The translations under genes and the position numbers were made by a program. Below the pieces are notes generated by a model. That model saw nothing but the letters and a program-made list of their open reading frames with translations, was not told the origin of the DNA and made no database searches. Positions 9,965 to 40,530 of a DNA stretch of 64,000 nucleotides are shown in pieces. Numbering within the stretch: the stretch's first letter is position 1; each line of letters starts with the position of its first letter. The stretch is taken from NCBI GenBank assembly GCA_029834535.1, contig JAQMWT010000677.1, positions 62,001-126,000 of the forward strand, given 5' to 3'. Source of the stretch: Chrysophaeum taylorii (lineage: Eukaryota > Sar > Pelagophyceae > Pelagomonadales > Pelagomonadaceae).

Positions 9965-10204
9965 GGTGCACTCGAGTTGGTGTGGACGTTACGACTTGTT
10001 CGTGTGCGACTGCGTACTTTTTTTGCCAAGACTTTGGAGAATTCGTGCAGGTTGTCTTTGTGCGAATTTCGTTTGCCGTGATAATATAGTTCCGCTGGGG
10101 GATCCTCAAGTTGCTGATGATGACTCGACCAACGGACTCGTAAAGGAGCAAACGTGCCTCCACAACGAAGAACATCATCGCAAGGTCTCGATTTGTGCGT
10201 GCCC

Positions 10205-10993
10205 GTGGCACCGCTTCGCGTCCTGGCTCTGGGCAACCCTGGAAGCGGGAAGAGTACGTCGTTGCTGAATTGTATCGCCCGACGACCACTGTTCAAGTCT
10301 GGAATTTCGTTCGGCGCTGGCTTGACGGAGAGCTTGTGTGAGAAGGAGTCGGAGGGTACTGTTTACGTCGACACCCCCGGCCTCTCCGACGAGGTGCTCC
10401 GAAAAAAGCGACGAGGGCCGTCACGGCAGCGCTTCGACGCGGCGGGTCACACAAGATTCTGTTTGTTCTTGTGGCGGTGCACGGGCGAGTTCGCCCGAAG
10501 ACAAGAACGGGCGATGCGCCAAGTCCTCGAGTCTTGTCGTGAAATTACGACGTGTGGCGTAGTCATCAATCAATGCAAGGACACATTATTGAAGCATCTT
10601 GGTGACGGGTCCAACCAACGTCAGAAATTTCTCACCGCCTTGTTCGCTGGCGTCGCGACTCGCGACAGGAAAGTCTATTTCGTGCCGATGATTCCTGAAT
10701 TAGCCGACGAAAATGACAAGATCGCCCCGTTACCGGAGACGACTTTACAGAACAATTTTTCGTCATGCTCCCAGTCAGTCGTCGACCTCGCGCCGCACCG
10801 GGCTGCCGACATCGATGCTGACGAACACAAGAAGTTGACCGATGAAGTTGAGGCCGCTGAAGCGCGTTTCAAAGAGTTAGAAATTCGTCGAGCGCAGGAG
10901 CGTCAGAGGAGGCAAGCTCAAGAGATCGAACAAATGAGAGCGCGAATTGCCCACAAGAACCGCCGCCGCCGCCATGAGTGTCTCATTTCGTGA
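10205..10993 (+). pseudogene. AIG1-type GTPase, plus-strand copy A (start codon lost, internal frame excursion)
   Basis: This is a homologue of the gene at 16084-16857. Where copy C has the start ATG (in CCCATGGC), this copy has GTG, and no in-frame ATG lies between the preceding stop and the P-loop. One A is missing from the A-run after DEVLR (about 10405) and one C is missing near 10490. The extra 2 bases shared with copy B then restore the frame, so the middle (about 30 residues including the region after DTPG) is read out of frame while both ends are in frame. The P-loop also has an inserted Ser codon (GKSTS). The C-terminal coiled coil and final CLIS are kept. Confidence 0.7.
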
Positions 10994-15844: not shown

Positions 15845-16083
15845 GGTGCACTCGAGTTGGTGTGGACGTTACGACTTGTTCGTGTGCGACTGCGTACTTT
15901 TTTGCCAAGACTTTGGAGAATTCGTGGAGGTTGTCTTTGTGCGAATTTCGTTTGCCGTGATAATATAGTTCCGCTGGGGGATCCTCAAGTTGCTGATGAT
16001 GACTCGACCAACGGACTCGTAAAGGAACAAACGTGCCTCCACAACGAAGAACATCATCGCAAGGTCTCGATTTGTGCGTGCCC

Positions 16084-16857
16084 ATGGCACCGCTGCGCGT
16101 CCTGGCTCTGGGCAACCCTGGAAGCGGGAAGAGTACGTTGCTGAATTGTATCGCCCGACGACCACTGTTCAAGTCTGGAATTTCGTTCGGCGCTGGCTTG
16201 ACGGAGAGCTTGTGTGAGAAGGAGTCGGAGGGTACTGTTTACGTCGACACCCCCGGCCTCTCCGACGAGGTGCTCCGAAAAAAAGCGACGAGGGCCGTCA
16301 CGGCAGCGCTTCGGCGCGGCGGGCCACACAAGATTCTGTTTGTTCTTGTGGCGGTGCACGGGCGAGTTCGCCCCGAAGACAAGACGGCGATGCGCCAAGT
16401 CCTCGAGTCTTGTCGTGAAATTACGACGTGTGGCGTAGTCATCAATCAATGCAAGGACACATTATTGAAGCATCTTGGTGACGGGTCCAACCGTCAGGAA
16501 TTTCTCACCGCCTTGTTCGCTGGCGTCCCGACTCGCGATAGGAAAGTCTATTTCATGCCGATGATTCCTGAATTAGCCGACGAAAATGACAAGATCGCCC
16601 CGTTACCGGACGACTTTACAGAACAATTTTTCGTCATGCTCCCAGTCGTCGACCTCGCGCCGCACCGGGCTGCCGACATCGATGCTGACGAACACAAGAA
16701 GTTGACCGATGAAGTTGAGGCCGCTGAAGCGCGTTTCAAAGAGTTAGAAATTCGTCGAGCGCAGGAGCGTCAGAGGCAAGCTCAAGAGATCGAACAAATG
16801 AGAGCGCGAATTGCCCACAAGAACCGCCGCCGCTGCCATGAGTGTCTCATTTCGTGA
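16084..16857 (+). CDS. AIG1-type GTPase with C-terminal CaaX-like CLIS (257 aa), copy C
   Basis: Starts at the ATG in CCCATGGC (16084), the only in-frame ATG upstream of the P-loop. P-loop GNPGSGKST (residues 10-18), G3 DTPG, AIG1-type block FVLVAVHGRVRPED, and a candidate G4 INQCKD. After the G domain comes a charged coiled coil (EVEAAEARFKELEIRRAQER) and a basic stretch (HKNRRR). The protein ends CHECLIS. A terminal C-L-I-S fits the CaaX rule for prenylation, with Ser favouring farnesylation (family knowledge), and follows a basic patch, as in membrane-targeted small GTPases. Copies A and B lost the start codon; this copy has not. Confidence 0.85.
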   Translation: MAPLRVLALGNPGSGKSTLLNCIARRPLFKSGISFGAGLTESLCEKESEGTVYVDTPGLSDEVLRKKATRAVTAALRRGGPHKILFVLVAVHGRVRPEDKTAMRQVLESCREITTCGVVINQCKDTLLKHLGDGSNRQEFLTALFAGVPTRDRKVYFMPMIPELADENDKIAPLPDDFTEQFFVMLPVVDLAPHRAADIDADEHKKLTDEVEAAEARFKELEIRRAQERQRQAQEIEQMRARIAHKNRRRCHECLIS

Positions 16858-35610: not shown

Positions 35611-36441
35611 ATGAGCTCGCACATCATCTGCGAAAAGGTAGTTACTGCGGCCCTCGAGGCCGCGCAAATGATCGCGAGAGAGGGTGTCGGCGAGAATCAG
35701 CGAGCGCACGGCTTTTTGTTCATCATCGGCAACTCGACCGAACTCCTCGCTCCTGATCCCGTCCTTAAATTTCCGCAAACCGAATCCTCCGTTCACTCTA
35801 AGTATGGTTTCTTCCCCAAGGACCTCGATCGCCGTGAAGCCGCGATTTTAATCAAGAATTGCTGTGAAGACGACGCCCAAAAGCGGGCGTTGCAGACCCT
35901 CTGCGCTCGCGACAACGCGATAATCATCGACGGCACCTCGGGCCAGGTCTGCTGCGGGGGGTTTGCGAACCGTGACAGCACGACACCGTACGGCACGGGC
36001 TCGCGCACGAGAGCGGCATCGTCTATCGCCGTAAATGCTGATTGCGTTTCTATCAAGGCTTCGGAAGACATCTGCTGCACAAGACAGAACCCTATATCTG
36101 ATGCATCGGACGCACACTTCGAAGTGTTCCGACGCGATTACTATCCCACAAAAGTCCCTGTCAGAGTCCCTGTACGAGAGAGTCCACCGTCTACGAATCG
36201 TACGTTCATGGTGTCCGCAACTGGCGGCGTGCACGGAATCAAATACAGGTATGAAGGCCACGCCAAAGATAAGGATTCGGGCATCGAACACGGAACGCCT
36301 CGTCGTTGGAAGAGTCCCGCGGGCGCAAAGGAACATGCTGCTCAAGAACTCGCCGAAAAACTTCAACGCGACGGCATTATCAAGGGACCGATTGACTTCA
36401 AAAACATCAACATTATTGATGGTGGTCATAATATCCCCTAA
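35611..36441 (+). CDS. DAC/DisA_N-like (diadenylate cyclase) domain protein with dsRBD-like tail (276 aa)
   Basis: I start at the ATG in GCCATGAGC (35611). Residues 13-160 follow the archaeal-type DAC (DisA_N) pattern: AALEAAQMIAREGVGENQ, then GFLFIIGNSTEL (family: GTLFVIGD), SKYGFF (family NPFKGY), ARDNAIIIDGTSGQVCCGG (family DGAFVIDGDG) and GTGSRTRAASSIAVNADCVS then SED (family GTRHRAAxxIT..TDA and SE). DAC domains make c-di-AMP from two ATP. The signature DGA is DNA (Asp101 kept) and RHR is RTR (132-134), so activity is uncertain. Residues 196-256 (RTFMVSATGG ... KSPAGAKEHAAQELAEKLQ) resemble the second half of a dsRNA-binding domain; this part is tentative. No signal peptide. A broken second copy lies 4 kb downstream. 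DAC proteins are chiefly bacterial and archaeal. Confidence 0.65.
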   Translation: MSSHIICEKVVTAALEAAQMIAREGVGENQRAHGFLFIIGNSTELLAPDPVLKFPQTESSVHSKYGFFPKDLDRREAAILIKNCCEDDAQKRALQTLCARDNAIIIDGTSGQVCCGGFANRDSTTPYGTGSRTRAASSIAVNADCVSIKASEDICCTRQNPISDASDAHFEVFRRDYYPTKVPVRVPVRESPPSTNRTFMVSATGGVHGIKYRYEGHAKDKDSGIEHGTPRRWKSPAGAKEHAAQELAEKLQRDGIIKGPIDFKNINIIDGGHNIP

Positions 36442-39721: not shown

Positions 39722-40530
39722 ATGGCCTCGCACATCCGCGAGGAGGTCGTCGCTGCGGCCCTCGAGGCTGGGCGAATGATCGTGACCGAAGGCGTCGGCG
39801 AGAACCACCAACCCGCGCACGGCGGTTTGTTCATAATCGGCGACTAAGAAGAACTCCTCCCGATCCTAACCTTTGGTTTCCGCAGCCCGAGTTGTCTGTT
39901 TGTTCGAAATACGGGACTTTCCCCAAGGCCCTCGACCGCCGCGATGTCCCGTTTCACATCCAGAATTGCTGCGAAGACGACTCTCGAAAGCATGCGCTGC
40001 AAGATCTCTGCGCTCGCGACAGCGCGATCGTCGTTGACGGCACCTCGGGCCAGGTCTGCTGTGGGGGGTTAGCGAGTCGTGACCTCACAACGCCGTGCGG
40101 CCCGGGCTCACGCAGCCGAGCGGCATCGGCGATAGCCGTGCAGGCCGGTGGCTGCGTTTCTATCAAGGCTTCGGAAGACATTTGCGGCACGCTTTGGAAC
40201 CCTGTCGCTTCGGACGCACACTTCGAAGTGTTCCGAAGTAAACTCGAACCAGAAAGAGTCCCCGTAGGAAAGTTTCCCGTGTCTACGAAGCGCACCTTCG
40301 CGGTGAGAGCCATAGGCGGCTTCTACGGGTGGGCGTACAACTTCGAAGGCCACGCCAAAGATAAGGAATCGGGCATCCAACACAAATCGCCTGATTGGAA
40401 GAGTGCTGCAGGCGCAAAGGAACATGCCGCTCAAGAACTCGCCGAAATATTTCGACGCGCCGGCTTGATTCAGGGGGCCGATTGATTTCAAGAATATCAG
40501 CATTATTGATGATGGTACTAAACTCTCGTT
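39722..40530 (+). pseudogene. Second DAC/DisA_N-like copy, broken
   Basis: Starts with an ATG at 39722 (MASHIREEVVAAALEAGRMI) and follows the intact gene throughout, including GLFIIGD, SKYGTF, ARDSAIVVDGTSGQVCCGG, GSRSRAASAIAV, SED and the dsRBD-like tail (KSAAGAKEHAAQELAE). It has an in-frame TAA at 39845 (codon 42) with a one-base frame change just after it, and one extra G near 40480 that brings an early TGA. The signature residues are DSA and RSR, also lacking the canonical Gly and His. The homology extends about 150 bp past the end of the coding part. Confidence 0.7.

Follow-up and report, generated by a model that had tools for sequence, protein, structure and literature searches.

A diadenylate-cyclase-fold family in the alga Chrysophaeum taylorii and its likely place in NOD-like receptor architectures

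We studied a stretch of 64,000 nucleotides from the pelagophyte alga Chrysophaeum taylorii (contig JAQMWT010000677.1, positions 62,001 to 126,000, forward strand), in the following called the window, in which the gene at 35611..36441 encodes a small protein with a domain related to diadenylate cyclases (DACs). We consider it probable that this stand-alone gene belongs to an algal DAC-fold family whose members usually sit in the N-terminal signalling/effector slot of proteins that resemble NOD-like receptors (NLRs). The overall architecture suggests nucleotide signalling by immune-receptor-like proteins. With regard to the parts of this reading, the family of the window domain is, judged by sequence profiles and a structure model, almost certainly a DAC-fold homologue, and the domain orders in the genome make it very likely that the DAC-like domain is an N-terminal slot domain of NLR-like proteins. 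The features of the window that are discussed below are the following (all on the + strand).

35611..36441: single-exon open frame of 276 aa from ATG to stop; DAC-fold domain plus unrelated C-terminal tail
35632..36171: DAC-fold domain, residues 8-187 (AlphaFold2, Foldseek, VIA-align, weak PF02457 match)
35911..35919: D101-N102-A103 at the DGA motif position (profile alignments to DisA and DACs; conservation counts)
35998..36012: G130-S131-R132-T133-R134 at the GTRHR/RHR position, Thr instead of His (alignments, counts)
36061..36069: S151-E152-D153 at the SEE motif position (alignment, conservation counts)
36187..36438: C-terminal tail of 84 aa, low-confidence fold
about 39722-40491: second copy of the window gene, damaged by TAA and TGA stops in frame and by a change of frame; its motifs read DSA and RSR

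Homology and predicted fold of the window domain

A first-pass annotation, made from the letters of the window, had described the frame at 35611-36441, quoted blocks of its translation (GFLFIIGN, SKYGF, ARDNAIIIDG, GTGSRTRAASSIA, SED) and numbered Asp101, Arg132 and Arg134, all of which we found as given. Profile and fold bear out its central claim, namely that a eukaryotic nuclear gene is homologous to DACs. Among Pfam families, the top match of the window protein is DAC (PF02457; residues 31-153, E 0.017, 15.2 bits), and the paralogue L031 clears the gathering cut-off of that family (27 bits) with 30.2 bits and E 3.7e-7. A profile of the algal family scores 33.8 against 9 bacterial DAC-type sequences. 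Here, control profiles stayed lower, with a maximum of 23.7 among 200 column-shuffled decoys (200/200 beaten) and 12.95 for the reversed profile.

The window domain is predicted to have the DAC alpha/beta fold. Block means of the predicted local distance difference test (pLDDT) in the AlphaFold2 model are between 73 and 95, except for residues 121-130 (54) and 181-190 (65); the least sure part are residues 128-130, just before R132, with values below 50. Fold searches of the PDB (Foldseek, VIA-align) gave DACs in all 50 listed of 103 matches and in 40/40 listed rows. That is, the predicted fold retrieves DACs, and the fold mismatch that the first-pass annotation had named as a refutation did not occur. 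Its label 'archaeal-type' was not supported: the archaeal DacZ model NF041371 reached only E 0.033 with one paralogue and gave no match with the window protein.

When the genome was searched with the Pfam DAC family up to an E-value of 1, three places were listed, namely the bacterial contig C301, L031 on contig C418 and contig C553, and the window gene was not among them; the match on C553 (E 0.53) was taken for chance. When searched alone against PDB sequences, the window protein matched only ribosomal eS12 (4/4 rows, E 0.3-1.6), which also heads the PDB list of the family profile (E 0.24). We rejected an eS12 reading, as the E-values are insignificant, the matches lie within residues 68-155, and the fold-search rows listed were all DAC.

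Architectures of the family in the algal genome

A protein search of the genome (70.8 Mb, 697 contigs) gave 20 rows, which comprise 12 near-complete open copies and 8 fragments or stop-bearing copies, two of them being the second window copy. The other fragments or damaged copies include rows on contigs C528, C675, C670 and C165. Frames were taken as the genomic stretches between stop codons, such that starts and introns are putative. The DAC-like domain begins longer frames (676-3406 aa) in 8/12 open copies. Four of these are NACHT-WD40 frames of 1298-1414 aa (L022, L026, L027, L030), while in the other four (L021a, L021b, L023 and the copy on contig C309, with frames of 838, 676, 946 and 3406 aa) the domain is followed by a module of about 430 aa. 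The 391-aa frame of L029 starts with the domain and breaks off within the NACHT part, whereas the frame of L028 has 267 aa and is followed, beyond its stop codon, by the 430-aa module. The window protein and L031 are the stand-alone open copies.

The paralogues combine the parts of NLR-like STAND receptors. A NACHT/STAND core is seen as NPHP3_N matches above cut-off in L022, L026, L027, L029 and L030, C-terminal repeats as WD40 in L022, L026, L027 and L030 and as ankyrins in C309, and the N-terminal domain is exchangeable. Over the whole genome, NPHP3_N is above cut-off at 12 places, of which 6 are beside a DAC-like domain or fragment. Three others, one on contig C44 and two on contig C359, are preceded by MLKL_N matches. 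Here, L058a passed the MLKL_N cut-off of 27 bits (31.8 bits), and L058b (25.7) and L057 (23.0) remained below it; when the N-termini were scanned alone, the latter two scored 24.9 and 23.0. The three N-termini are one family, with that of L058a being 70% and 74% identical to the others. Residues 206-1391 of L026 align to L058b with 43.8% identity (1285 columns) and to L057 with 43.5% (1280 columns), and both alignments begin directly past the DAC domain; L058a is 38% identical to L026 over 456 columns. Since this NACHT-WD40 backbone, at about 44% identity, bears an MLKL_N-like domain elsewhere, the DAC-like domain fills a swappable front slot of NLR-like proteins.

The 430-aa module recurs at 28% identity in L055 and L056, the N-termini of which are PNP_UDP-like below threshold (22.0 and 22.9 of 25.1 bits) and, being 95% identical to each other, were counted as one case. 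The module (alignments A4 and A5) had no Pfam match in L023 and no match among PDB sequences; it may resemble CHAT domains. On contig C309, one open frame of 3406 aa (612866-623083; L024 from 9167, L025 to 9483) holds a DAC-like domain, the 430-aa module, an MLKL_N-like domain, ankyrins, a protein kinase and a NACHT match. The respective MLKL_N score is 24.3 bits in one scan (cut-off 27) and 29.5 bits, i.e., above cut-off, in another, and the NACHT match is under its cut-off (20.8 of 26.7 bits). In the C-terminal part of the frame at 573-4466 of L022, a second P-loop (GQGRVGKTS) is found past the WD40 repeats, which by eye looks Roc-like.

Alignment A1 holds 11/12 open copies, and the C309 copy joined in A3. 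Two of nine branches of the domain tree are well supported, and the order of fusions was not read from it. Alignment A2 consists of 8 of the 11 fetched plasmid DAC loci (L042-L052) and the bacterial L039; L048, L050 and L051 were excluded (no annotated gene there), and L042 and L052 are close relatives. At L042 (plasmid pAQ6 of Picosynechococcus PCC 7002), a small DAC gene is followed by genes for an ATP-binding protein and a CHAT protein, possibly a conflict-system setting. Scans for prokaryotic and viral relatives, which reach close relatives only, confirmed none for A1 (14 stretches of viral contigs, 77 of genome contigs) and none for L031 (30 stretches of genome contigs, 1 of viral contigs). 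Likewise, no close relative was found of the window protein in plasmids or of L031 in phages and plasmids.

Two further observations concern other sequences. The window contains two small GTPase-like frames (10124-10987 and 16003-16854, +), about 5.9 kb apart, the first with an MMR_HSR1 match (E 1.3e-6); their first 80 residues are nearly identical, which makes a duplication likely. Contigs C25 and C521 show matches at near-equal coordinates with equal scores and are likely duplicate haplotype contigs.

Pocket residues, proposed mechanism and alternatives

Next, we consider the pocket, with counts covering the 12 near-complete open copies. Ala103, Gly130, Arg132 and Ser151 are each found in 12/12 copies, Asp153 in 11/12 and Glu152 in 8/12. 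Asp101 is present in 10/12, with His replacing it in L022 and Glu in L021b. At residue 102, 9/12 copies have Asn and 3/12 have Gly, and Arg134 is kept in 7/12, the others having Lys, Lys, Gly, Thr and Gln. Residue 133, i.e., the His of RHR, is Thr in 11/12 copies and His in L031 only. DGA and RHR are both intact in L031 alone, while the window protein has DNA and RTR. This confirms the altered motifs reported by the first-pass annotation, including DSA and RSR of the pseudogene copy; its statement that the Asp and both Arg are kept holds for the window protein and fails for the family, where only Arg132 is constant. Among the 9 compared bacterial DAC-type sequences, the RHR His is found in 9/9, the third residue is Leu in 4/9 (three annotated as diadenylate cyclase, one as DisA nucleotide-binding domain protein), and the Asp is replaced by Asn in 1/9. 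The fixation of Thr133 in 11/11 copies besides L031 speaks against free decay. Since the window protein matches neither the canonical motifs nor the Pfam cut-off, we file it as a divergent DAC-fold homologue and not as a diadenylate cyclase. L031 (4529-5431 of this locus, on contig C418), a diverged stand-alone copy with canonical motifs, is by its sequence the strongest candidate among the copies for a eukaryotic DAC with activity.

Mutants of bacterial enzymes give a scale for these changes (here and below, statements on cited papers refer to the parts of each source that were available). In CdaA, the Ser of the SEE motif touches the ATP phosphates, and the Leptospira enzyme requires both the Asp and the first Arg, while a Ser mutant has about half activity (PMC12974146). 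Mycobacterial DacA retains activity with G73A in DGA and is dead with RHR changed to AAA (PMC3328451); in CdaS, changing either DGA or RHR to AAA abolishes activity (PMC4568413). All three residues that were mutated one by one in CdaA are present in the window protein, which departs from the bacterial pattern at the RHR His. Given the active G73A mutant and the Leu at the third RHR position in bacteria, some of the pocket changes may be mild.

Copies with the Asp, the first Arg and the Ser, the window protein included, probably bind ATP and may convert it to some nucleotide product; catalysis in at least some copies is possible but somewhat less likely than not. DACs work as head-to-head dimers (PMC8573169), such that a NACHT receptor could plausibly switch on a domain of this kind by oligomerising. 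In the mechanism we propose, the triggered NACHT part would oligomerise and bring the DAC-fold domains together head-to-head, and the joined domains would pass the signal on through the nucleotide pocket. The Asp-less copies L022 and L021b would be silent partners, and the small window protein would either signal together with the receptor domains or modulate them. That the DAC-fold domain acts as an NLR effector enzyme, i.e., that the activated receptor makes a cyclic dinucleotide or other nucleotide signal independently of cGAS-like enzymes, with the window protein and L031 in the circuit, is a tentative extension, which we consider possible but less likely than not.

Several observations weigh against placing the window gene in such a signalling family. 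The PF02457 check suggested by the first-pass annotation gave DAC as the top match, but with a score under the cut-off. Of the 8 paralogue proteins scanned against Pfam, 4 list DAC with an E-value of 0.1 or lower, and L031 alone has it above cut-off; L023 and L021b gave no DAC match, and for L022 and L030 its presence was judged among the matches listed. A DAC hidden Markov model built from A2 ranks receptor-type members weakly. The AlphaFold model was computed from 12 sequences of this alga's own paralogues, L031 included, solved DACs are part of what AlphaFold has seen, and the low confidence at residues 121-130 adjoins the pocket. The RHR His is lost in 11/12 algal copies while retained in 9/9 bacterial sequences, and the Asp is missing from 2/12 copies. 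The window protein itself consists of the DAC-fold domain and the tail, with neither NACHT core nor repeats, and we infer the immune function of the NLR-like proteins from their architecture alone. As regards a downstream receptor, a STING search gave 0 matches, with controls likewise silent. Scans of 6 proteins with PADLOC and of 3 proteins with PHROGs were empty, and the 3 DHHA1 matches found may be tRNA-synthetase-type.

The losses in the pocket are what one would expect if the DAC fold were retained only as a homotypic interaction module with a dead pocket, i.e., as a pseudo-enzyme adaptor: the RHR His is Thr in most copies, the Asp is lost in two, the third Arg is altered in 5/12, and NLR N-terminal domains are often adaptors (PMC4986451). 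However, the invariance of the first Arg, Ser151 and Ala103 and the constant Thr133 outside L031 look like a retuned pocket and not like drift, and some changes may be mild, as argued above, such that we rate this explanation as rather unlikely, if the most serious of the alternatives. An adaptor is not the only role without catalysis. The domain might instead be a sensor for c-di-AMP, or for some other nucleotide, that surrounding bacteria release: the DAC pocket holds its own product (DisA D75N was solved with c-di-AMP according to the title of 4yxm), and a bacterial contig with canonical cdaA was co-assembled with the alga. This we regard as improbable, given that the DAC-like domain sits at the N-terminus, in a slot that an MLKL_N-like domain can fill as well, while NLR sensing is usually done by the C-terminal repeat region.

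Only slightly less improbable is that the window gene is a relic, i.e., a truncated and decaying receptor gene like its neighbour at 39.7-40.5 kb. It has no NACHT part, a damaged copy lies 4 kb downstream, and the genome holds other fragments and damaged copies, as on the four contigs named above. Yet its 276 codons are open, and the ratio of nonsynonymous to synonymous substitution rates (dN/dS) of its domain is 0.18-0.31 in pairwise comparisons with 10 close paralogues (0.53 with L031), although decay of recent date would leave no trace in such values. Moreover, the 84-aa tail is, within the genome, confined to the two window copies (63% identical between them), which implies that the solo form is older than their split. 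That the whole family stems from bacterial contamination is most improbable. A bacterial contig is indeed in the assembly: C301 (locus L039, GC content 0.39) carries a true cdaA beside folP, with TIGR00159 above cut-off, and, by its gene order and best matches, is probably from an associated bacterium of the Bacteroidota. The family loci, in contrast, have GC contents of 0.55-0.59 (window 0.58), the window also contains a gene for a mitochondrial carrier, and light-harvesting genes (71 protein matches in the genome) share contig C309 with a family member and contig C359 with the MLKL_N-like sister proteins.

Relation to known systems

To our knowledge, c-di-AMP synthesis is regarded as prokaryotic. 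Among the papers listed by our literature searches, we recognised, by title and abstract, no eukaryotic DAC or DAC-NLR; an unreported or database-only precedent is possible. Respective terms are absent from PMC9815663 and PMC12258605 (cyclase, DisA) and from PMC11249213 (diadenylate, c-di-AMP, DAC), and the prokaryotic conflict-system domains named in the available part of PMC7159879 include GGDEF and cNMP cyclases but no DAC. Compared to the bacterial and archaeal DACs (PF02457: DisA, CdaA/DacA, CdaS, CdaM, DacZ), the window protein is alike in predicted fold and motif order and shares the pocket Asp, first Arg and Ser. It differs in having DNA and RTR instead of DGA and RHR, in that most of its relatives belong to NLR-like or related fusion proteins, and in its eukaryotic host.

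A DAC in defence is known from DS-2, a CBASS-like (cyclic-oligonucleotide-based anti-phage signalling system) anti-phage system, where the DAC is needed for phage defence and mutating either of two predicted catalytic residues abolished it (PMC13092281). The likeness would lie in the setting, which for the algal family is suggested by its architecture. The DS-2 DAC has a gene of its own, next to genes for a cGAS-like enzyme and a phospholipase, in a bacterial system of three genes, and is not fused to NACHT (PMC13092281). The NACHT-WD40 proteins with MLKL/HeLo-like N-termini share the backbone within this genome (about 44% identical) and differ by their MLKL_N-like domain in place of the DAC.

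Similar in layout are fungal NLRs, which have a NACHT core, WD40 or ankyrin repeats and a swappable N-terminal domain as in the algal family; their N-terminal domains include PNP_UDP, RelA_SpoT and HeLo-type domains, and swaps of this kind occur in them (PMC4986451). The RelA_SpoT proteins are a precedent for a bacterial second-messenger synthase domain in the N-terminal slot. The fungal proteins are of another lineage, and DAC is in 0/12 N-terminal classes listed in the available part of the source (PMC4986451). If a DAC-fold domain indeed serves in the NLR effector slot, algae would have an immune output based on nucleotides that runs in parallel to the TIR and cGAS systems. Even with a dead pocket, it would be an additional type of NLR N-terminal domain, recruited from a prokaryotic signalling fold. 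The algal family adds a DAC-fold variant to the known NLR-like repertoire.
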